This document shows, one piece after another, positions 30,023 to 57,653 of a stretch of 64,000 nt of DNA; within the stretch, counting starts at the first letter, position 1; each line of letters opens with the position of its first letter. Origin of the DNA: Burkholderia sp. BCC0322 (lineage in GTDB: Bacteria; Pseudomonadota; Gammaproteobacteria; Burkholderiales; Burkholderiaceae). The notes beneath the pieces were generated by a model. The model was not told the DNA's origin. It made no database searches and saw only the letters and a program-made list of their open reading frames with translations. The stretch lies in assembly GCF_902833045.1 (NCBI RefSeq), contig NZ_CADFDU010000003.1, forward strand, positions 186,001 to 250,000, written 5' to 3'. A program made the position numbers and the translations under genes.

Positions 30023-30584
30023 GGTGATCCCGTGAAGGTCGTTCGATGAGGACACACATCGCCGTGCCGCCGGAATGCGCGACGCCGGTTCGATCGTCAT
30101 TGAATCACGGATACGAAAACGCGGCCCGGCCGGCCCGCGATGGCGTCCGCTGGTTGCCGCAACGGATGAAACGAAATGGCTGCGCGAGCGCGAGGCGTCG
30201 CTCGGCCATCCGCTGTTCAGGGGCATGGATCCAGGGCGGACGACTGGACGCGAACGCAGCCGGGGCGCCGCCACAATCTTACGAATCGTTTGCAAACGCG
30301 GCACACGCGGGCCGTTGCGTTGCCGAGGGCCGTCGCGCCGGGCGCAAGCCTTTCGGCAAGCTGACCGGCGGTCGCAAGCGGTGCCGTGACCGCGCGTAAC
30401 CCCTGATGCGAGCGGATGCGCGGGGCGTCACGGATTGGTGTTAAATAGGTTTCGGCGCGCGATGGCACGGCGCGCAATACGGGGCGCACCGGGCATCGGC
30501 GTAAACCCGGGGCGAAAAACGGCACGAAGGATCGAAAACGAATCGGGCGCATCAGACCCGATCGGACAGACGGCAGGATTCATC
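30023..30584. other. Intergenic region upstream of GGDEF-EAL gene
   Basis: Between the dehalogenase and the c-di-GMP gene are 562 bases with no convincing frame. At 30363-30391 the order GACC (30363), GGTC (30370), GACC (30388) allows two exclusive hairpins, preceded by GCC-TTTC-GGC at 30348-30357. This might be a structured leader of the downstream message. It does not match the c-di-GMP riboswitch consensus. Confidence 0.4.
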
Positions 30585-32834
30585 TTGAATACCGAACCGC
30601 AAAGTTCTCGTTACAGTCTCGGGCTCGCGGCGGAAGTGCTCGCGTCCGAGCAAAGCGTGCTGAGGCTGATCACGCGCAACACACCGCTGCCGGACCTGTT
30701 GGTCGAAGTCTGCCGGCGTGCCGAGGCGTTGCTCGGCGACGGTGCGTCGTGCACGATCCTGCTGCTCGATACCGACGGCGTGCACGTGCACGTCGGCGCC
30801 GCGCCATCGCTGCCCGCGCAGTACAGCGCGGCGATCGAAGGGGCATCCATCGGGCCCGTGGCCGGCTCGTGCGGCACGGCGATGTACCTGCGCCGGATGG
30901 TCGCCGTCGAAGACATCGAAACCGATCCCCTGTGGGCCGACTACCGTGCCTTCGCATTGCCGCTGGGCTTGCGTGCGTGCTGGTCGGTGCCGTTCCTCGA
31001 CGATAGCGGCGCCGTGCTCGGCGCGTTCGCCGTCTATCACCGCACGCCGCGCCGGCCGGGCGACGAGGAAACCGCACTGTTGCGCGATATCGGCAACAGC
31101 GTCGGCCTCGCGGTGCACCAGGACCGGATCGCGCGACAGCTCGCGCGCAGCGAGGAACATCACCGGCTCGTGGTCAACAGCCTGCAGGAAGGGATCCTCG
31201 TCGTGTCGCGCGACGGCGTCGTGGTCGCGAGCAACCCGAGTGCGAACCGGATGATGCGCGTGAAAGGCGACCTCGTCGGCCGCCGGCTGTCGACGGTGAT
31301 CCTGCGCAAGCTGCACGAGGACGGCACGCCGATCGCGCCCGACGAATGGCCGAGCCGGCGCGCGCTCGAGACGGCCACGCCGCTGCTCGACTACACGGTC
31401 GGCTTCGGCCTCGCGGACGGTGACATCATCTGGGTGCGTGGCAACGCGGTGCCGATCGTGAGGCCGGGCGAGAAGCAGGCCGACTCGGTGCTCGTGTCGT
31501 TCAACGACATCGGCCCCGTGCGCGAAGCGCAGCAGCAGCTGCGCTACCTGGCGACGCGCGATGCGCTGACGGGCCTCTACAACCGCCGATGGCTCGGCGA
31601 CCGCATGCGCGAGCTGTTCGGCGGGCGCGATGCGGCGGGCGGGCCCGCGCGCGTCGCGATCCTGTTCATCGATCTCGTCGGCTTCAAGAAGGTCAACGAC
31701 ACGGCCGGCCACGACGTGGGCGATGCGCTGCTGCGCGGCGTCGCCGCGCGGCTCGCGGCCTGCGGGGGCGGCCAGTACGCCCTCACGCGCGTCGGCGGCG
31801 ACGAGTTCGTGATCCTCGTCGACGACTGCAGTGATCCCGACCAGCTCGCGGCGCTCGCACGCGAGGTGATCGACGCGATCGCGAAACCGTTCGCGATCGC
31901 GAACAACGAATACTGGCTCGGCGTGTCGATCGGCATCAGCGTCGCGCCGCGCGACGGCGACGATGCCGTCACGCTGATGCGCAACGCGGATTCGGCGATG
32001 TACGACGCGAAGCAGCGCGGCCGCAATCACTTCACGTTCTTCACCGCACAGCTCAACCTGCGGCTGCAGCGCCGCTTCGCGATCGAGCAGTCGCTGCGGC
32101 GCGCGCTGTCGTCGGACATGCTGCGGCTCGCGTATCAGCCGGTCGTCGATGCACGCAGCGGCCGCACCGTCGGCGCCGAGGCGCTGCTGCGCTGGACGAG
32201 CCCGGAGCTCGGGCCGATGTCGCCGGCGGAGTTCATCCCGGTCGCGGAAGATACGGGGCAGATCGTCGCGATAGGCCAGTGGGTGCTCGAAACCGCGTGC
32301 CGGCAGGCTGCCGAATGGCGCCGCACGATCGCGCCCGATCTGATGCTGGCCGTCAACCTGTCGCCGCGGCAGTTCCACGAAGGGCTCGTCGAGTCGGTCG
32401 ATCGCTGCCTCGCGCAGGCGCGACTCGATCCTTCCGCGCTCGAACTCGAGATTACCGAAGGACTGCTGATGAACGACACGGACACCGTGCTGCCGATGCT
32501 CGAGGCGCTCACGGACATGAACGTGCGGATCTCGGTCGACGATTTCGGCACCGGCTACTCGTCGCTCGCTTACCTGAAGCGCTTTCCGCTGCACAACCTG
32601 AAGGTCGACCGCTCGTTCGTGTCGGGCGTGCCCGATCATCACGACTCGGTGGCGATTACGCAGGCCGTGGTCGCGATGGCGCATTCGCTCGGGATGAAGG
32701 TCACGGCCGAAGGCGTCGAGACGCAGGCGCAGTCACGGTTTTTGCAGCAGATCGGCTGCGACATGCAGCAGGGCTATCTGTTCAGCCGCCCGCTGGACCC
32801 GACCGACTACGCGCGCCGGCTCGGCGCCGTGTGA
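30585..32834 (+). CDS. GAF-PAS-GGDEF-EAL cyclic di-GMP protein
   Basis: The TTG at 30585 is the best start: the frame upstream to 30435 has poor third-position G/C, and AGGA lies six bases ahead. The 749 residues divide into GAF (about 20-180), PAS (190-310), GGDEF (320-485) and EAL (495-740). The cyclase signature is intact (VGGDEF at 403-408), and so is the phosphodiesterase one (EAL at 532-534, DDFGTGYSS, EGVETQAQ). The inhibitory RxxD site is replaced by GGQY, so product inhibition is not expected. No signal peptide or membrane helix is seen, so it is cytoplasmic and could both make and break c-di-GMP. The gene converges on wspR, 20 bases away. Confidence 0.88.
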   Translation: MNTEPQSSRYSLGLAAEVLASEQSVLRLITRNTPLPDLLVEVCRRAEALLGDGASCTILLLDTDGVHVHVGAAPSLPAQYSAAIEGASIGPVAGSCGTAMYLRRMVAVEDIETDPLWADYRAFALPLGLRACWSVPFLDDSGAVLGAFAVYHRTPRRPGDEETALLRDIGNSVGLAVHQDRIARQLARSEEHHRLVVNSLQEGILVVSRDGVVVASNPSANRMMRVKGDLVGRRLSTVILRKLHEDGTPIAPDEWPSRRALETATPLLDYTVGFGLADGDIIWVRGNAVPIVRPGEKQADSVLVSFNDIGPVREAQQQLRYLATRDALTGLYNRRWLGDRMRELFGGRDAAGGPARVAILFIDLVGFKKVNDTAGHDVGDALLRGVAARLAACGGGQYALTRVGGDEFVILVDDCSDPDQLAALAREVIDAIAKPFAIANNEYWLGVSIGISVAPRDGDDAVTLMRNADSAMYDAKQRGRNHFTFFTAQLNLRLQRRFAIEQSLRRALSSDMLRLAYQPVVDARSGRTVGAEALLRWTSPELGPMSPAEFIPVAEDTGQIVAIGQWVLETACRQAAEWRRTIAPDLMLAVNLSPRQFHEGLVESVDRCLAQARLDPSALELEITEGLLMNDTDTVLPMLEALTDMNVRISVDDFGTGYSSLAYLKRFPLHNLKVDRSFVSGVPDHHDSVAITQAVVAMAHSLGMKVTAEGVETQAQSRFLQQIGCDMQQGYLFSRPLDPTDYARRLGAV

Positions 32835-49377: not shown

Positions 49378-51104
49378 AGAAGACACTTTCGATGACGCTG
49401 GTCGCGCTGCTGGCCGCGGGCGCGTGCGGCGTGGCCGCCGCGGGCGGCGGCGATGTCGGGCAGACCGCCAGGCAGGCAACCAACACCACGGCCATCGTCC
49501 TGTTCGCGCTGTTCGTGGCGGGGACGTTGTGGATCACCAAGTGGGCGGCTTCGCGCACACGTTCCGCCGCGGATTTCTACACGGCCGGCGGCGGCATCAC
49601 CGGGTTTCAGAACGGCCTGGCGATCTCGGGCGACTACATGTCGGCGGCATCCTTCCTCGGCATTTCCGCCGCGGTGATGACGTCGGGCTACGACGGCCTG
49701 ATCTACTCGATCGGTTTTCTGGTCGGCTGGCCGGTCATCACGTTCCTGATGGCCGAGCGGCTGCGCAATCTCGGCAAGTTCACCTTCGCCGACGTCGCGG
49801 GCTACCGCTTCGAGCAGGGGCCGATCCGCAGTTTCGCCGCGGTCGGCACGCTGGTGGTGGTGGCGTTCTACCTGATCGCGCAGATGGTGGGCGCGGGGCA
49901 GCTCATCAAGCTGCTGTTCGGTCTCGACTACTGGGTGGCGGTCGTCATCGTCGGCGCGCTGATGATGGTCTACGTGCTGTTCGGCGGCATGACGGCCACC
50001 ACATGGGTGCAGATCATCAAGGCGTGCATGTTGCTCGCGGGCGTGACCTTCATGGCGATCATGGTGCTCGCGCAGTACGGCTTCAGCCCGGAGGCGCTGT
50101 TCGCCCATGCCGTGGAAGTCAAGACCGCGATCGCCGCCAATGCCGGCAAATCGCCGGACGACGCGACCCGGATCGGGCTGTCGGTGATGTCGCCGGGCGG
50201 GTTCATCAAGGATCCGATCTCGGCCATCTCGTTCGGCATGGCGCTGATGTTCGGCACCGCCGGCCTGCCGCACATCCTGATGCGCTTCTTCACGGTGCCG
50301 GATGCGAAGGAAGCGCGTAAATCCGTGTTCTGGGCAACCACCTGGATCGGCTATTTCTACGTGCTGATCTTCATCATCGGCTTCGGTGCGATCACGCTGG
50401 TGCTGACCAATCCGGAGCTGGCCGACGTGGCCAAGGGCGTGATCAAGGGCGGCGCGGGCACGGCCAACATGGCCGCGGTGCTGGTGGCCAAGACGGTGGG
50501 GGGCGACGTGTTCTACGGCTTCATCTCGGCCGTGGCCTTCGCGACGATTCTGGCGGTGGTGGCCGGGCTCACGCTGTCGGGCGCGTCCGCGGTGTCGCAC
50601 GACCTCTATGCCACCGTATTCAAGAACGGCAACGCGAACAGCGCCGACGAGTTGAAGGTGTCGCGCATCACGACGCTGGTGCTCGGCGTGATCGCCGTGC
50701 TGCTGGGCATCGCGTTCGAGAAGCAGAACGTCGCGTTCATGGTGTCGCTGGCGTTTGCCGTGGCGGCCTCGGCCAATTTCCCGGTGCTGTTCCTGTCGAT
50801 GATGTGGAAGGGCTGCACCACGCGTGGTGCGGTCATCGGCGGGTTCCTGGGGCTGGTCTCGTCGGTGGGGCTGACGATCGTGTCGCCGTCGGTGTGGGAA
50901 GCGACGCTCGGTTATCCGAAGGGTTCGGCGTGGTTCCCGTATACGTCGCCTGCCTTGTTCTCGATGACGATCGGCTTCGCGGGCGTGTGGCTGTTCTCGG
51001 TACTCGACACGAGCCTGCGCGCGAAGGCCGAGAAGAGTGCGTTCGCCGCGCAGCAGGTGCGCTCGGAAACGGGGCTGGGGGCGACGCGCGCCAGCAGCCA
51101 CTGA
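49374..51104 (+). CDS. actP: Acetate permease, sodium:solute symporter family
   Basis: A 576-residue carrier with a cleavable signal ([20 protein letters not shown]) and about 13 helices, matching E. coli ActP (549 residues). Characteristic are [20 protein letters not shown] then [12 protein letters not shown], the SSS signature region near [20 protein letters not shown], and [16 protein letters not shown]. It takes up acetate and related short acids with sodium or protons. No acetyl-CoA synthetase gene is adjacent. A long hairpin follows the stop. Confidence 0.9.
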
Positions 51105-51118
51105 CCGGGAGCCGGTCA

Positions 51119-51181
51119 CGCCCGCCCCGGGGGCGACGATGTGATGCGCTTTATTGTCACTCGTCGGCCCCGGGGCGGGCG
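51119..51181. terminator. Long terminator-like hairpin after actP
   Basis: The left arm CCCGCCCCGGGGGCGACGA (51121-51139) pairs with TCGTCGGCCCCGGGGCGGG (51161-51179) with one mismatch, and two more pairs extend outwards. The loop itself contains GTGA/TCAC. A TTTT tract follows at 51188. It begins 15 bases after the actP stop, so it is probably its terminator. Confidence 0.75.
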
Positions 51182-51565
51182 GCATCGTTTTCATCGGTTC
51201 GCCGCATCATTCGCCGGCAATAAAAAATCGCGAATTCGACCGGATTCGCCGATAATTCGCAAACGTTTTACGAAAGCCCGATTGCGGCTGATCCGCGGAT
51301 TAACTAAATAAAAAAGCAAATATCCGCATCCCGGATTTTCCGGCCGCGCCGTGATGCCATGGGAAGCCTTGAAGCAGAAGGTTAACGGCAGATTTCGCCA
51401 ATACTTTAGGGCTCTTTCGTCACAATTATTCATTTCATTCCTGTCAATGAACGATTGATTTTCGGTCATCGGAGCGTCATACACCATCCCCGATAATTCG
51501 GCGCTCACATTCTTTCAATAGACCAAACGGCGATCGAAGCCGGATCGCTGCGGGGAGCTGTACTC
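51182..51565. other. AT-rich promoter region of the chemosensory-like operon
   Basis: These 384 bases are clearly lower in GC than the rest of the window, with runs such as AAATAAAAAAG near 51305. Sigma-28-like GCCGATAA occurs at 51247, and CCCGATAA at 51491, but no matching -35 box with the correct spacing was found. A minus-strand frame (51191-51508) lacks the codon bias of the region and is not taken as a gene. GGGGAG precedes the ATG at 51566. Confidence 0.45.
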
Positions 51566-53959
51566 ATGACCATCCGTCATCGCATTACGCTGCTAGTCGT
51601 CCTGACGTTCTTCGCGCTGTCCGCGATCGGCATCTATGCCGTGTACCAGACGCGCAAGAGCGCGGCCGAGGTACGCCAGGTCACCCAGGGAATCGTGCCG
51701 AGCGCGCTCGCGTCCGCCGATCTCGTCGCCGATGTGAAGAACATCCAGATCGCGACGATGACGCTCGTCTACGCGCCCGACGCGAACACCGCCGCGCAGG
51801 CGCGCGACGAGCTGAAGGCGAAGCAGGGCGCGCTGCGTGCCGCGCTCGACGTGCAGGCGAAGTCGGCGGTCGGCCAGGCGCAGGTCGGGCTCGTCTCGCA
51901 GGCGAAGGACAGCGCCGCGAACTATTTCGCGGCGATCGACGACACCGTGAAGATGAAGGCCGACGGCAAGCCCGAGATGGCGCAGGCGTACCTGTTCGCG
52001 AACGTCGCGCAGTATCGCGACGAACTCGAAAGCATCGTCGATACGCTGCGCGTCGAGAAGAACCGCCAGAAGGACGACGCGATCAGCGCGCTGAACGGGA
52101 TGCTCGCGACGACGGCGACCGCGATCGGGGGCGTCGCCGGCACGGTGGTCGTGCTGCTGACCGCGCTCGGCCTGCTGCTGTATCGGCAGATCACGCGCCC
52201 GCTGATCGGGATGCAGAAGGCGATGAGCGAGATCGCGACGAGCCAGGATTTCACGCGCCGCGTGCCGGTGGGCCGGATGGACGAAATCGGCCACTCGATC
52301 GTCGCGTTCAACGGGATGATCGAGAAGATCCAGGAGAACTCGGCGCAGCTCAAGCAGAAGACGGCCGACATCCAGGCGATGCTGCAGAACATGCAGCAGG
52401 GGATCCTGACCGTCGTCGAAGGCGGCGTCGTGCATGCGGAGTATTCGGCGTACCTCGAAACCATCTTCGAGACGGGCGACATCGCCGGCCGCGACCTGAT
52501 GGCGCTCGTGTTCGACGACTCGAACATCGGTTCCGACGCGCGCTCGCAGGTCGACGCGGCCGTACACGCGTGCCTCGGCGAGGACAGCATGAACTTCGAG
52601 TTCAACGAGCACCTGCTGGTGAACGAAGTCGCGAAGCGGATGCCGGACGGCCGCGAGAAGTGGCTCGACCTGAGCTGGTCGGCGATCACCGACGAGACCG
52701 ACACGGTCGTGCGCCTGATGCTGTGCGTGCGCGACGTGACCGAGATCCGCGAGCTGACCGCGCAGGCCGGCGAGCAGCAGCGCCGCCTCGAGATGATCGG
52801 CGAGATCCTGTCGATCAGCCAGGACAAGTTCCACGACTTCGTGCACAGCGCGAAGGGCTTCCTCAGCGAGAACGAGCGGATGATCCGCCAGCACGAGCGC
52901 GCCGATCACTCGATCGTCGCGGCGCTGTTCCGCAACATGCACACGATCAAGGGCAATGCGCGCACGTACAGCCTCCAGCACCTGACGAACATCGTCCACG
53001 AAGCGGAGCAGGCGTACGACTCGCTGCGCCGCGCGGACGGCGGCCCCGAGTGGAACCGCGACGCGCTGATGGACGACCTGGCGCGCGTGCGCGAGGCGGT
53101 CGAGCACTACGCGACGATCAATGCGGTTACGCTCGGCCGCAGCGGCGAACCGGTGCAGGGCGCCGACTTCCTGATGGTCGAACGCGCACACATCAGCGAG
53201 AGCCTGCGCGTGCTCGACGGCGCCGATCCGGCCAACGCGTCCGACTGGCACGCGGCCCGCGACGCCGTGCGCCGCATGCTGAGCCAGCTCGGCACGCAAG
53301 GCATCGGCGAAGCGCTCGGCGGCGTGATCGAGTCGCTGCCGTCGCTCGCGGCCGAACTCGGCAAGCCGGCGCCCGTCGTGCATATCGACAGCCACGGCCA
53401 CCGCGTGCGCAGCGAAATCGTCGCGACACTGAAGAACGTGTTCATGCACCTGCTGCGCAATTCGATGGACCACGGGATCGAATCGTCCGACGAGCGACGC
53501 GCGGCCGGCAAGGCGGCGTCCGGCACGATCGACATCGCGGTCGGCGTGGGCGGCGGCGAGCTGTGGTTCGTGCTGAGCGACGACGGTCGCGGCCTCGCGC
53601 TCGACCGGATTCGCGGCATCGCGCGCGAGCGCGGGTGGATCGACGCCGACCACGATGCGGCGCTGTCCGATGACGAGGTGGCCGAGCTGATCTTCCGGCC
53701 GGGCTTCTCGACGGCGAGCACGGTGACGGAAGTGTCGGGGCGCGGCGTCGGCATGGACGCGGTGCGCAACTTCCTGAAGCGCGACGGCGGGGATATCGCG
53801 CTGCGCTTCACCGACGATCGCGTCGGCGCGCCGTATCGCGCGTTCGAGACGATCGTGTCGTTGCCGGCCCGCTTCGCGGCGGACGGCGCCGCTCAGGGCG
53901 CCGCTCAGGGCGTCGCGCACGAGCGTGCGCGCAGCGCGGATATCGGCGCGGCGGAGTGA
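51566..53959 (+). CDS. Membrane CheA-like protein: sensor-HAMP-PAS-HPt-HATPase
   Basis: A 797-residue protein combining receptor and kinase parts. Helix 1 (8-27), a four-helix-bundle periplasmic domain (30-180), helix 2 (185-206), HAMP (207-260) and a PAS domain (262-390) come first. HPt follows, with His459 in NMHTIKGNARTY, the CheA P1 motif. The CheA-type ATPase has N box HLLRNSMDHGIES (628-640), G1 DDGRGL (672-677) and G2 SGRGVGMD (724-731). It ends at once in a GAAQGAAQG tail: neither the CheW-binding P5 nor a clear P3 dimer domain is seen. The likely function is a chemoreceptor and kinase in one chain, feeding the CheX/CheY genes downstream. Signal and output are unknown. Confidence 0.85.
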   Translation: MTIRHRITLLVVLTFFALSAIGIYAVYQTRKSAAEVRQVTQGIVPSALASADLVADVKNIQIATMTLVYAPDANTAAQARDELKAKQGALRAALDVQAKSAVGQAQVGLVSQAKDSAANYFAAIDDTVKMKADGKPEMAQAYLFANVAQYRDELESIVDTLRVEKNRQKDDAISALNGMLATTATAIGGVAGTVVVLLTALGLLLYRQITRPLIGMQKAMSEIATSQDFTRRVPVGRMDEIGHSIVAFNGMIEKIQENSAQLKQKTADIQAMLQNMQQGILTVVEGGVVHAEYSAYLETIFETGDIAGRDLMALVFDDSNIGSDARSQVDAAVHACLGEDSMNFEFNEHLLVNEVAKRMPDGREKWLDLSWSAITDETDTVVRLMLCVRDVTEIRELTAQAGEQQRRLEMIGEILSISQDKFHDFVHSAKGFLSENERMIRQHERADHSIVAALFRNMHTIKGNARTYSLQHLTNIVHEAEQAYDSLRRADGGPEWNRDALMDDLARVREAVEHYATINAVTLGRSGEPVQGADFLMVERAHISESLRVLDGADPANASDWHAARDAVRRMLSQLGTQGIGEALGGVIESLPSLAAELGKPAPVVHIDSHGHRVRSEIVATLKNVFMHLLRNSMDHGIESSDERRAAGKAASGTIDIAVGVGGGELWFVLSDDGRGLALDRIRGIARERGWIDADHDAALSDDEVAELIFRPGFSTASTVTEVSGRGVGMDAVRNFLKRDGGDIALRFTDDRVGAPYRAFETIVSLPARFAADGAAQGAAQGVAHERARSADIGAAE

Positions 53960-53963
53960 CGAC

Positions 53964-54710
53964 GTGATCGTGCAGGCGTGGATGTTCCAGATGGCCGCCG
54001 CACTGGCGGGCGGCGCCGTCGTCGCGATCGTTGCGGCGGTCGTGTTTCGCTTGACGCGCAAGCGACTCGTGACGGCGCTCGAACGCGACGTGGCGCAGTT
54101 GCGCGGCGCGCTCGACGCAGCCGATGCGCGCATCGCCGACGCCAGGTCGGCGCATGCGGAGGCGGTCGATGCATGGGCGCAGCGCGAGGCGCAGCTCGAG
54201 GATGCGCTCGCGCGCGAGACGTCCGCGGCCGGCACGCAGCGCGATGCCATGCAGGCACTGTCGGCGGATCGTGCCGCGCTGGCGCAGCACGCGATGAAGA
54301 TCGCCGACGAAGCCGCGCGCCTGCGCGGGCTCGCCGGCACCTTCGAGCGCTGGCACGAGCAGATGATCTCGCTGACCACGCAGAACCAGGACATGCGCGC
54401 GAAGAACCAGGAGTTGTCGGCAATCGTCGCGCACGTGTCGATCGTGTCGCTGAACGCATCGATCGAGGCCGCGCGCGCCGGCACGGCCGGGCGTGGCTTC
54501 TCGATCGTCGCCAGCGAGGTGCGCGGGCTGGCCGCGCGCTCGCAGGAACTGTCGAACAGCTATCGCGACAGCCTGAACCGCAACGACCTCGTGACGGCCG
54601 CGACGTTCCAGGACATCCAGGCCGGCGGCAAGATGATCACGGCCGCGCTCGCGACCGTCGAGTCGCTGGCCGGGCAACTTCACGCGCGGATCGAAGGAGG
54701 CGTCGCGTGA
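53964..54710 (+). CDS. Membrane-anchored MCP signalling-hairpin protein without sensor
   Basis: A 248-residue protein starting at the GTG at 53964, four bases after the kinase gene. One membrane helix (residues 5-30) is followed by about 90 residues of Ala/Glu/Arg coiled coil and the receptor kinase-control region: SAIVAHVSIVSLNASIEAAR then AGTAGRGFSIVASEVRGLAA. The usual Q-T-N-L-L-A-L-N is replaced by H-V-S-I-V-S-L-N, and there is no ligand domain and no HAMP. It may act as a scaffold holding the kinase in arrays or as a phosphatase-coupling element. It overlaps the CheX gene by 4 bases. Confidence 0.8.
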   Translation: MIVQAWMFQMAAALAGGAVVAIVAAVVFRLTRKRLVTALERDVAQLRGALDAADARIADARSAHAEAVDAWAQREAQLEDALARETSAAGTQRDAMQALSADRAALAQHAMKIADEAARLRGLAGTFERWHEQMISLTTQNQDMRAKNQELSAIVAHVSIVSLNASIEAARAGTAGRGFSIVASEVRGLAARSQELSNSYRDSLNRNDLVTAATFQDIQAGGKMITAALATVESLAGQLHARIEGGVA

Positions 54711-55288
54711 TCAGCGCGCAGGCGAAAGCCGGCTTCGAGCGGATCTTCTTCGACGCGGCGCGCACGCGGCTCGCATCCGGCGGTGCGTGCGACATCCGTC
54801 CGGCCGCGGGCCCCGCACACGACGCACACGATCATGCGCACGCGAGGTCGCGTGCGAAGCCGAAGGTGACCGAGCATGTCGCGGTGCTGACGATCTCGGC
54901 GCTGCATTTCCGCCTGCTGCTCGCACTGCGCTTTAGCGACGACGAGGCGACGCGCCGCCAATTCGCCGGCGCGACGGCGGGCACGAGCAGCCAGCGGCCG
55001 CTGCCCGAAGCGTTCATGGAAGTCGCGAACCTGTGCTGCGGGGCGATCAACCAGGCGCTGACCGCACCGTTTCCCGACCTCGGGATGTCGACGCCGTATC
55101 TGCTGAGCGGATCGAGCATCGACTACTTGCCGGCGCTGGCGCCCGATCACGTGGCCGCGTACGACCTGACGCTCGACGGCGACGTGCGGGTCGGCGCGAC
55201 GTTATGCGTGTGCGCGAATGCGCCGGTCGATTTCCATGTGCCGGAAACGGCCACGGTGGATACCGGCGGCGAGCTCGAACTGTTCTGA
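54707..55288 (+). CDS. CheX-like phosphatase
   Basis: A 193-residue protein from a GTG that overlaps the previous stop (GTGA). Residues 1-50 are variable and His/Ala-rich; the rest resembles CheX/CheC/FliY. The catalytic signature ExxN is in EAFMEVANLCCGAINQ, and the conserved Pro comes 22 residues after the Asn (GMSTPYLLSG), as the family rule requires. It should dephosphorylate the CheY-like protein of the operon. The C-terminus is GGELELF, shared with the next protein. Confidence 0.75.
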   Translation: MISAQAKAGFERIFFDAARTRLASGGACDIRPAAGPAHDAHDHAHARSRAKPKVTEHVAVLTISALHFRLLLALRFSDDEATRRQFAGATAGTSSQRPLPEAFMEVANLCCGAINQALTAPFPDLGMSTPYLLSGSSIDYLPALAPDHVAAYDLTLDGDVRVGATLCVCANAPVDFHVPETATVDTGGELELF

Positions 55289-55320
55289 TCGATCCCGACC
55301 GACCATTAGGAATTCTTGAG

Positions 55321-56280
55321 ATGACCCTGGACAAACCCGTCAGCAAGGTGCTCGTGCTCGACGACAGTCGCGCGCACGCCGACGCGATCAAGCGTTTCTG
55401 CGACGAGCACAACCTGATTGGCCTGACCGTGCGGCGCAACCGGCTGCTGAAGGTGCTGCGCTCGAACATCGATCTCGGCGCGATCCTGCTGGCCGAGGAT
55501 TACGGCGGTTCGCCGGCCGAGAGCGCGATCATCGCGACGCAGATCGATGCGCTGCGCCCCGAGCTGCCGATCATCCTGCGCCGCGAATCGCTCGCGTCGC
55601 GCGACGGGCTGCCGGCGGCGCTCGCGCGCGTCGCATGCGCGGCCTACGTCGCGGACGACATGACGCCGCTCAAGCGCGCGATCGACGAATACCTGTTCGG
55701 CCGCGAATACCCGAACGCGCTCGTGCGCGGCATCTCGGAGATCACCGAGGCGCGCATCGACAGCCTGTTCCCGGGCATGACGATCGAGCACGAGACACCG
55801 TGCATCGTGCGCGACCAGATCATCTTCGGCGAAGTGTTCAGCCTGATCGCGCTCGAAAGCGCATGGTGCCGCGGCTACATGCTGCTGCAGACGAGCGAGC
55901 AGCCGCTGCTCGACATGCTCGGCGGCACGCGCGACGCCGGCCGCGCGCCGGATTTCCGCGACGTGAACAGCGTGCTCGGCGAGCTGACCAACCTCGTGTG
56001 GGGCGCGTTCAAGAACCGCTACCTCGGCGACGCCGAGGCGCTGGCGCGCCATCCCGTGCAGGTGCCGCTCGTCGTCAATCACAAGCAGAAGTTCATCTCG
56101 TTCGGCGGCGATTGCCCGCAGCTCTGCTTCAAGTACCGGATGACCGACCCGGCATCGGGGCGCTCCGTCTGCCTCGATCAGCGCTTCGTGTTCAGCCTGA
56201 GCTGGTCGCCGGAGGACTTCCGCGAATCGGTTCAGGACGTGGGGCCGATGGTCGAATCGGGTGAACTCGAACTGTTTTGA
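55321..56280 (+). CDS. Degenerate receiver fused to CheX-like domain
   Basis: A 319-residue protein. Residues 8-125 follow the receiver fold (KVLVLDDSRAHADAIKRFCD) with the acidic pair DD, but the phospho-acceptor strand reads GAILLAEDYGG and the conserved lysine strand reads AYVADDMTP, so key residues are missing. The second half (140-319) is CheX-like with ELTN (ExxN) in VLGELTNLVWGAFKNR. It ends in SGELELF, the same tail as the preceding protein. Perhaps the pseudo-receiver regulates a phosphatase through protein contact. It begins 32 bases after the first CheX gene. Confidence 0.72.
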   Translation: MTLDKPVSKVLVLDDSRAHADAIKRFCDEHNLIGLTVRRNRLLKVLRSNIDLGAILLAEDYGGSPAESAIIATQIDALRPELPIILRRESLASRDGLPAALARVACAAYVADDMTPLKRAIDEYLFGREYPNALVRGISEITEARIDSLFPGMTIEHETPCIVRDQIIFGEVFSLIALESAWCRGYMLLQTSEQPLLDMLGGTRDAGRAPDFRDVNSVLGELTNLVWGAFKNRYLGDAEALARHPVQVPLVVNHKQKFISFGGDCPQLCFKYRMTDPASGRSVCLDQRFVFSLSWSPEDFRESVQDVGPMVESGELELF

Positions 56281-56320
56281 CTATTGAAGTCAGCAACAAG
56301 GAAAGGAAGGGGAATAGGAC

Positions 56321-56686
56321 ATGGCAAAGATTCTGGTGGTCGACGATTCGGGCACGGTGCGCGACGAGGTCGCGGGCTTCCTGCGCAATCACGGGCTCGA
56401 CGTCGCGACGGCCGTGGACGGCAAGGACGGCCTCGCGAAGCTCAAGGCGACGCCCGGCGTGCGCCTCGTGATCAGCGACGTGAACATGCCGAACATGGAC
56501 GGCCTGACGATGGTCGAGAAGATCCGCGGCGAGCTGGCGAACTCGACGGTCAACGTCGTGATGCTGACGACCGAAAGCAGCCCGGCGATGAAGGAGCGCG
56601 GCAAGGCCGCCGGCGTGAAGGGCTGGATCGTGAAGCCGTTCAAGGGCGAAGCGGTGCTCGACGCGCTGAAGAAGCTCGCGGGCTGA
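56321..56686 (+). CDS. CheY-like single-domain response regulator
   Basis: A 121-residue free receiver with all catalytic residues: DD in ILVVDDSGTVRDEV, acceptor Asp in LVISDVNMPNMDG, Thr in VVMLTTESSP, and Lys in WIVKPFKGEAVL. It follows the CheX fusion by 40 bases and is the last gene of the operon. No output domain is present, so it must act on a partner protein. It is the natural target of His459 of the CheA-like protein and of the CheX phosphatases. Confidence 0.9.
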   Translation: MAKILVVDDSGTVRDEVAGFLRNHGLDVATAVDGKDGLAKLKATPGVRLVISDVNMPNMDGLTMVEKIRGELANSTVNVVMLTTESSPAMKERGKAAGVKGWIVKPFKGEAVLDALKKLAG

Positions 56687-56726
56687 GGCTCGTCGGGCGG
56701 TGGCGCGGCCGCTGCCGCCCGCGCAT

Positions 56727-56954
56727 TCAATGCTGCGGTTCGGGTGGCGCGGCCGCCGCAACGCCGGTGGTGGCCGCCATGTGTGGCGCGGGCGTCTGCC
56801 GTGGCACGACGATCATCCCCGCGAAGATCCGCGCGACACCCGCGATGCGGCCGGGTGTCGCGAGCCGCTGCGCGAGCCCCATCAGCCCGTAGCGGTCGAT
56901 CAGCAGCGTCGCGAGCGGCGAGTCGCCGCGCGGCGCGGCCGGCCGCGCGCGCAA
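56727..56954 (-). pseudogene. C-terminal fragment or short unknown gene
   Basis: From a TTG at 56954 to TGA at 56727 the minus strand keeps near-perfect third-position G/C and encodes about 75 residues including TLLIDRYGLMGLAQRLATPG and ARIFAGMIVVPRQTPAPH. Upstream of the TTG coding character stops. No ribosome site is clear, so this is more likely a remnant end of a longer gene than a complete protein. It is convergent with the CheY gene. Family unknown. Confidence 0.35.
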
Positions 56955-57065
56955 TTTACAGCGTGCCGCGATGTCCGTATCCTGCCGGATGCCGAGGGCG
57001 GCGTGCCTGCGCGACCTGCGCAGCACGCACGGCATCCACGACAATCAGGAACGGGACACCTTCCC

Positions 57066-57653
57066 ATGAAAACCGGAATCGATCGGGCGGCGCTCGTGCA
57101 CGGCGCATGCGTGGCGCTGATGGCCGCGCTGGCAGGCGGATGTGCAAACCCCACCGGGCAGCCGAATGCGCAACAAGCGTCCGTTAGCGGCGGTTCGTCG
57201 TACACGTGCAACCCCACGCAGGCCGATGGACTGGTGACGGCCGGGAGCGGCGTCAACGGGTGCTATTTCGTGCTGCACGATCCCGCGACGAAGCAGCCGC
57301 TGCCGTACACGCGTTATGCGTTCGCGCTTTACACGAGCGCGGCACAGGACAACCGGGAACTCGAAGTCGAAGGCACGACCGACGCGCAGGGGCGTACGGC
57401 CTACATGCGTTCCACCGCGCCGATCGATGCGGCGCGCATGGTGCTCGTCCGCACGGTCGGCGACGGCCCGACGGGGCGCATCCCCGTGCTGGTCCGGCCG
57501 CAGGACGGCAAGCGCATTCCGTTCGCGGAGTACCGGGTCACCGGCTGCAACGGCCCGTATGAAGGGGTGACCGACGAAACGGGGCGCGGCGTGATGTATC
57601 GCTGCAAGACGCAGTCGAAGATTGACGTGTCGTTCTATCGGTCACGCCCGTAA
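57066..57653 (+). CDS. Hypothetical lipoprotein
   Basis: A 195-residue exported protein. The signal MKTGIDRAALVHGACVALMA ends in the lipobox LAGGC (Cys26). The mature chain contains four further cysteines (YTCNP, NGCYF, TGCNG, YRCKT), suggesting two disulfides. It has an Ig-like flavour, with strands such as GTTDAQGRTAYMRSTAPI and GVTDETGRGVMYRC, each of them an aspartate-glycine turn motif of the kind seen in repeat-type adhesin domains. It follows 379 bases after the CheY gene and starts 11 bases ahead of the DUF3592-like gene. Confidence 0.65.
   Translation: MKTGIDRAALVHGACVALMAALAGGCANPTGQPNAQQASVSGGSSYTCNPTQADGLVTAGSGVNGCYFVLHDPATKQPLPYTRYAFALYTSAAQDNRELEVEGTTDAQGRTAYMRSTAPIDAARMVLVRTVGDGPTGRIPVLVRPQDGKRIPFAEYRVTGCNGPYEGVTDETGRGVMYRCKTQSKIDVSFYRSRP

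Follow-up and report, generated by a model that had tools for sequence, protein, structure and literature searches.

Results

A five-gene operon in Burkholderia sp. BCC0322

We analysed a stretch of 64,000 nucleotides from Burkholderia sp. BCC0322 (contig NZ_CADFDU010000003.1, positions 186,001 to 250,000; the whole stretch is hereafter called the window), in which five genes lie together on the + strand at 51566-56686 in the order kinase, MCPh (a hairpin resembling methyl-accepting chemotaxis proteins, MCPs), CheX1, CheX2, and CheY, separated by 4, −4, 32, and 40 bases. All features below are on the + strand. The genes encode a membrane sensor kinase of 797 aa (51566-53959), supported by its open reading frame (ORF), Pfam, alignment, a Protein Data Bank (PDB) match, and a CheW profile; MCPh (53964-54710), for which a GTG start is proposed from its GGAG, the longest ORF beginning at 53925; CheX1, a CheX-fold protein (54707-55288) whose start overlaps the MCPh end by 4 bases; CheX2, a predicted pseudo-receiver joined to a CheX domain (55321-56280; alignment, Pfam, model, and Foldseek); and a single-domain CheY (56321-56686; alignment). 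An initial annotation of this DNA had proposed such a compact operon, and its place, strand, and spacing are confirmed here, while that annotation overlooked the pseudo-receiver of CheX2, a C-terminal tail common to both CheX proteins, and the wide conservation of the set.

Distribution and gene order

Scanning a collection of species genomes yielded 252 CheX2 relatives, from which the best 80 loci were kept, and at family thresholds of >180 bits for MCPh, >120 for CheY, and >380 for the kinase, all five genes were present in 72 of these 80 loci. The gene order of the window recurred in 50/80 loci and the order kinase-CheX2-CheY-MCPh-CheX1 in 12/80, the remaining loci being order variants or missing a gene, some of them on short contigs, with CheX2 alone in two (L074 and L083). 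Among the operon genes, MCPh and CheX1 were neighbours in all 76 loci that have both, as were CheX2 and CheY in all 77, and because neither pair is ever separated, the arrangement points to two sub-modules served by one kinase. Identity among MCPh and CheX1 proteins falls to about 25-55% (25-52% to the window copy for CheX1 in the aligned set), and since the five genes stay together across such divergence, their linkage is not chance. A recent or local arrangement is ruled out by the wide distribution and by the 72 complete loci. Among the 80 loci are ones from Herbaspirillum, Aquabacterium, Rhodoferax, Chromobacterium, Paludibacterium, Formivibrio, Paraburkholderia, and Methylococcales bins. 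Going by record titles, many of them of metagenome bins, this conserved unit of signalling belongs to Beta- and Gammaproteobacteria, and it stays intact in many bacteria of soil and water; the search for gene-set conservation, which the initial annotation had suggested, thus makes the finding more general than that annotation supposed.

Within the nearest genus (37 genomes), the kinase was full length or nearly so in 30 genomes, at 86-98% identity, and partial or in pieces in three more, with matches at the level of the ATPase only in G007, G030, G033, and G034. Two kinase matches fall in two pieces (G009:C2:187150-189527 and G015:C235:8793-11154), one of them with an internal stop, and there the gene may be broken or misread. 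More broadly, CheX1 occurred in 67 of 150 genomes of the family (9/25 genera), CheX2 in 11 of 300 genomes of the order, and CheX2 matches in 13 of 398 genomes of the phylum sample, five strong and eight weak. The eight weak gammaproteobacterial matches were rejected as operon members, the five examined being solitary CheX proteins. Three ORFs matching two families were considered as fusions linking parts of the operon and rejected, since from the matches listed they resemble ordinary MCPs whose kinase scores are weak. In L113, a high CheY score comes from a long protein that is hybrid-kinase-like.

The alignments used below are a diversity-picked subset of the families (41 kinases, 47 MCPh, 49 CheX1, 49 CheX2, and 44 CheY, the window included; some MCPh and CheY rows are omitted).

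A CheA-type kinase with its own sensor

In the window kinase, Pfam recognised 4HB_MCP_1, HAMP, a weak PAS, Hpt, and HATPase_c, which places a 4HB_MCP sensor at residues 1-161, HAMP at 204-257, a PAS-like region at 268-391, HPt at 447-510, and a CheA-type ATPase at about 593-767. Its best match among solved structures is CheA (6s1k, E 6e-32), spanning residues 593-748, with a weak HPt match in addition. Hpt and HATPase_c were found in 41/41 kinases, whose invariant residues include H459 (codon 52940-52942), K462, and G463 of the HPt and N632, D635, H636, G637, D672, G674, G676, G725, G727, and G729 of the ATPase boxes. The input side varies, with 4HB_MCP_1 in 26/41 kinases, 7TMR-DISM in 4/41, and HAMP in 33/41. 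One variant of 2011 aa (L091:1483-7515) is the likely source of the single Ser/Thr protein kinase, AAA, and GAF matches among the 41. At L055 and L062, two kinases flank or follow a single MCPh-CheX1-CheX2-CheY set, as if two sensors fed one CheY.

The CheW-like P5 domain is missing from these kinases. Pfam gave no CheW match at E ≤ 0.01 in any of the 41, and a CheW profile, made from 15 CheW stretches of operon genomes and recovering 15/15 in a leave-one-out control, had no match at E ≤ 1 in 76 kinase ORFs or among all 6653 ORFs of 113 loci and the window; 1.38 Mb of the DNA scanned comes from the 80 genome loci plus the window. In loci surrounding other CheY genes, the same profile detected three CheW-like stretches. 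There is no room for a CheW domain in the window kinase, because some 30 residues follow its ATPase domain and a CheW domain has 138 positions. The initial annotation had described a kinase with HPt His459, an ATPase, and its own sensor, HAMP, and PAS, and had held that a CheW domain in it would speak against this view; the Pfam matches and the 41-kinase alignment bear the description out, and no such domain appeared in the Pfam and profile searches. An ordinary CheA cluster can be ruled out, there being no P5, no CheW in the loci, and no adaptation gene among the window neighbours tested. According to a CheA survey (PMC10542144), the surveyed proteins all hold four of the five canonical domains, P2 often being the missing one, and CheA is described as having no sensor domain. 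The operon kinase shares with canonical CheA the HPt and the type of ATPase but differs in its own membrane sensor, HAMP, and PAS and in lacking a CheW domain (41/41); it is a CheA-type enzyme that has its own sensor and no P5.

A receptor hairpin with a second conserved block

MCPh has a single short hydrophobic segment at its N-terminus, followed by a coiled coil and a canonical MCP hairpin tip. For the window protein Pfam returned MCPsignal (3e-14) and neither a sensor domain at E ≤ 1 nor a HAMP match, in keeping with the sensorless receptor hairpin that had been described as following the kinase. The receptor-tip block (residues 176-203 of P0004; 54450-54533) keeps the sequence LNAxIEAARAG-GRGFxVVA-EVR-LA, and because this canonical tip is retained, MCPh may bind CheW made elsewhere in the cell. 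A second block in the C-terminal arm (residues 217-237 of P0004; 54573-54635), equals the tip in conservation, as do W143, N154, and N161; these three residues and L217, D221, T227, F228, and Q232 are invariant in 47/47 sequences. The alignment of MCPh with Tsr stops at profile position 205 (about residue 214 of P0004), just before this block, and has a 7-residue gap beside the tip; those to 6s18 and 31cj extend into the block or all the way across it. MCPh thus resembles Tsr and other MCP receptors in its hairpin tip but differs from them in having no sensor or HAMP match, a short C-terminal arm, and a second block beyond the Tsr alignment. From these patterns of conservation, the block with W143, N154, and N161 is the best candidate for a pathway-specific contact. 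Its FQD is reminiscent of the CheZ catalytic region; as no CheZ match was found in MCPh by Pfam at E ≤ 1, MCPh is probably not a phosphatase.

Two unequal CheX proteins

Both CheX proteins carry the ExxN motif, invariant in 49/49 CheX1 (E105 and N108; 55019-55030) and in 49/49 CheX2 (E228 and N231 in the numbering of P0002; 55981-55992), so that the two CheX domains with ExxN read by the initial annotation hold across both families. Pfam matched CheX in the window CheX2 at 1.1e-8 and, at E ≤ 0.1, in 49/49 CheX2 and 37/49 CheX1 proteins. A structural model of CheX1 (mean pLDDT 88) retrieved with Foldseek solved CheX and CheC structures first and FliM/FliY next. The CheX2 model (mean pLDDT 84) contains a five-strand receiver fold and then a CheX domain, for which Foldseek returned RssB (a receiver plus another domain), CheX/CheC proteins, and receivers, and a profile search of solved structures returned 3iic, 6vpw, and 3h2d. 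Compared with each other, the CheX1 and CheX2 profiles align with probability 79 (E 1.6e-5), the alignment extending to a common C-terminal end. With the CheX fold and the ExxN motif of CheX phosphatases, both proteins are predicted to dephosphorylate CheY~P.

The receiver fold of CheX2 (55339-55692; alignment, Pfam, model, and Foldseek) appears to lack a conserved phospho-acceptor. With places assigned from strand order, not superposition, the receiver phospho-acceptor position at the end of strand 3 is Glu in 42/49 proteins and Asp in 2/49; strand 1 is followed by two acidic places, of which Asp or Glu fills the first in 47/49 and the second in 24/49. A Response_reg match was found by Pfam in 1/49. 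On the model, the front of CheX2 is a pseudo-receiver, a receiver-like fold that has no conserved phospho-acceptor Asp.

Work on Borrelia (PMC4013479) names its CheX the CheY-P phosphatase. The operon proteins have the fold and ExxN of the CheX/CheC phosphatases of Thermotoga, Borrelia, and Vibrio but differ from them in being two unequal CheX proteins, one fused to a pseudo-receiver and both tailed by a hexapeptide. Solitary gammaproteobacterial CheX proteins (3iic, 3h2d, 6vpw; V. cholerae VC0377) have a CheX domain that weakly matches CheX2, yet they are about 150-190 aa long, end otherwise, and have no operon genes nearby (by eye, five loci). Those at L144-L148 end in EICFDK, EFSFDD, and similar, beside what look like dnaB, alanine racemase, and Fur-like genes, and VC0377 is reported to be mutated in one motility suppressor (PMC8789113).

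A common C-terminal hexapeptide

CheX1 and CheX2 of the window both end in GELELF (55268-55285 and 56260-56277), and G-x-[LIM]-[EDQ]-[LMF]-[FL] ends all 49 CheX1 and all 49 CheX2 proteins of the aligned sets; the stricter G[ED]L[ED][LMF]F ends 36/49 and 47/49, respectively. The few ends other than GELELF and its close variants include solitary gammaproteobacterial proteins and cut or wrong ORFs. Two CheX2 copies with no match to the other four families in their stretch (L020:1480-2451 and L074:8899-9945) are still tailed, with GELEFF and GALELF, and in G097, the genome of L020, a second CheX2 adjoins kinase and CheY genes (L016). In both models the hexapeptide is of low confidence (final blocks 54-57) and has no secondary structure.

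We searched 19 whole genomes for the strict DNA pattern GEL[ED]-x-F-stop, which leaves out looser variants such as GALEMF, and obtained 31 matches, all at the ends of CheX1 or CheX2 genes, 30 confirmed by profile and the 31st by coordinates, against one match in total for the reversed control. The pattern was present in 17/19 genomes, the two genomes with none (G007 and G034) being of the same genus and lacking a full-length kinase; in G215, G241, and G243, this strict pattern shows one of the two tails only. Because the pattern is confined to CheX1 and CheX2 ends, the tail has the look of an address reserved for this pathway. One common hexapeptide on both CheX proteins, about G-x-L-E-[LMF]-F, is new here. 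The tail of CheZ and receptor pentapeptides are likewise short C-terminal peptides that unite an enzyme and a partner; the operon tail differs from these in sequence and in sitting on CheX proteins. In one study (PMC7698151), a receptor C-terminal pentapeptide contributes to the insulation of one P. aeruginosa pathway.

The operon CheY among other receivers

The window CheY matches Response_reg in Pfam, and its D8, D9, D53 (the phospho-acceptor, codon 56477-56479), T83, and K105 are invariant in 44 aligned sequences, agreeing with the complete CheY of the initial annotation. Eight genomes have 34 to 73 matches to the operon CheY each; the best-scoring one outside the operon is 36-48% identical and, in 8/8, sits no more than about 5 kb from a CheW gene. 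Set against 22 other receivers matched in these genomes, operon CheYs have 24 internal positions that are ≥90% conserved among them and common to <35% of the others. These operon-specific residues are frequent in 54-77 and 88-112, nine of them (P88, M90, E92, R93, K95, K100, I103, G109, and V112) lying in the latter, which is roughly alpha4-beta5-alpha5. In CheY, this face takes FliM and CheZ peptides, and it is plausible from the sequences that the acidic, hydrophobic tail would bind the basic conserved face of the operon CheY.

Neighbouring genes

Pfam assigned the seven flanking genes to an esterase, DUF485, a Na+/solute symporter, two proteins with no match, an enoyl-CoA hydratase, and an alanine racemase, so that no che, flagellar, or c-di-GMP gene adjoins the operon among these seven. 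The initial annotation was right on this point for these genes, and a lone CheY can act remotely. Neither CheR nor CheB was present among the seven window neighbours put through Pfam, other loci not having been searched for them. Across lineages, clustering of the flanks and a GGDEF/EAL motif scan gave scattered neighbours at varying places, with none seen to be common to them. About 19 kb upstream of the operon, at 30435-32834, the window encodes a protein in which GGDEF- and EAL-like motifs were read by eye. Promoter and terminator scans of the operon region gave matches within chance, and Rfam had no match in the window from 51000 to 57500.

Discussion

With modest confidence, we favour the view that the operon is a dedicated chemosensory branch that works without CheW, has its own relay from kinase to CheY and tailed CheX phosphatases, and has flagellar behaviour as its likeliest output. 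The kinase would sense through its own sensor (a 4-helix bundle here, 7TM in some relatives), HAMP, and PAS; its CheA-type ATPase would then phosphorylate His459 of the HPt, from which the phosphate would pass to Asp53 of the operon CheY, to be removed by CheX1 and CheX2 with their ExxN motifs. Similarly to the CheZ tail, GELELF may hold both CheX proteins to one common partner, for which the alpha4-beta5-alpha5 face of CheY is the likeliest candidate. Anchored in the membrane, MCPh might be a scaffold or an allosteric partner of the kinase/CheX1 pair and not a ligand receptor, and the pseudo-receiver of CheX2, mostly with Glu for the acceptor Asp, could be an unphosphorylated docking or regulatory domain. 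In sum, the operon would probably be a side branch with its own CheY, serving motility.

The link to motility comes from genome content. FliM was found in 57 of 58 operon genomes and 199 of 300 genomes of the order, the 58 including at least three apparent duplicates with common match positions (G232/G872, G159/G853, and G097/G870), hence at most about 55 distinct genomes. The 11 operon genomes of the order sample, which are among the 58, all have FliM (one-sided p 0.0099, ancestry ignored), and so do 67/67 family genomes bearing CheX1 vs 42/83 of those that do not. Several observations weigh against our reading. Genome size and ancestry both confound the FliM association; size does so because, of the 41 family genomes that lack FliM, the 20 listed are without exception small (≤2.8 Mb). 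In one operon genome, G880 (behind locus L107), our search gave neither FliM nor FliG. The CheX match of the window CheX1 is sub-threshold in Pfam (0.011), and the models superpose loosely on CheX proteins in Foldseek (rmsd about 5-8). Fifteen of the 24 operon-specific CheY positions lie outside residues 88-112, between 13 and 77, and MCPh or the kinase would fit as well as CheY as the partner of the tail. Finally, all 58 operon genomes searched contain CheW, through which the operon may couple to a canonical array.

The presence of CheW in every one of these genomes and the canonical tip residues of MCPh are what an accessory input to a canonical array would lead one to expect, with the MCPh tip inserted into CheW/CheA arrays that the operon kinase, CheY, and CheX proteins would tune or drain. 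Such an input seems unlikely, as the operon kinase has no P5 with which to enter an array, CheW is absent from the 80 loci, and in MCPh the C-terminal arm is short, the alignment to Tsr has its 7-residue gap beside the tip, and the second block falls just past that alignment. Another account takes up the self-contained pathway that the initial annotation put forward as a possibility and assigns it a trait other than motility, its CheY acting on another partner and flagella being incidental. That no flagellar gene adjoins, that no output neighbour conserved across lineages was seen, that kinase sensors vary among species, and that G880 has neither flagellar protein would all suit this idea, which we rate about as improbable as an array input, given FliM in 57/58 and 67/67 operon-bearing genomes (genome size confounding this count) and a CheX fold that is the fold of CheY phosphatases and FliM. 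As to self-containment itself, a distinct, conserved, CheW-less set stands, but with CheW in 58/58 and FliM in 57/58 genomes, self-containment is supported in part only. The further proposal that the hairpin replaces CheW coupling is not established, in view of the kept canonical tip and the CheW of the host genomes.

A different account would make the tail a general linear motif directing the two CheX proteins to some other machine. In shape, LE[LMF]F with its free C-terminus does resemble the xLxLF motif of sliding-clamp ligands. That clamp motif usually begins with Gln, unlike the tails here, and the confinement of the strict pattern to the two CheX proteins of the operon in 19 genomes fits a private partner better, which makes a general motif very improbable.

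We found no published description of the five-gene set, in a search that covered few subscription papers, so one may exist there; the initial annotation, too, knew of no described system with exactly this set, and none was found in the papers searched. We class the operon as a variant form of chemosensory signalling that has two tailed CheX proteins and no CheW. A larger claim, which we consider doubtful, is that it represents a separate class of pathway, in which a membrane hairpin in direct contact with the kinase and CheX1 would have replaced CheW/P5 coupling and a private C-terminal GELELF code on the two phosphatases would insulate the branch from the dozens of other receivers in the cell.

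Conclusions

The operon makes two questions testable, namely what controls a CheA-type ATPase that has neither CheW nor P5, and how one pathway is kept separate among the dozens of receiver domains in a cell, for which the tail common to both CheX proteins is a short peptide candidate for insulation.

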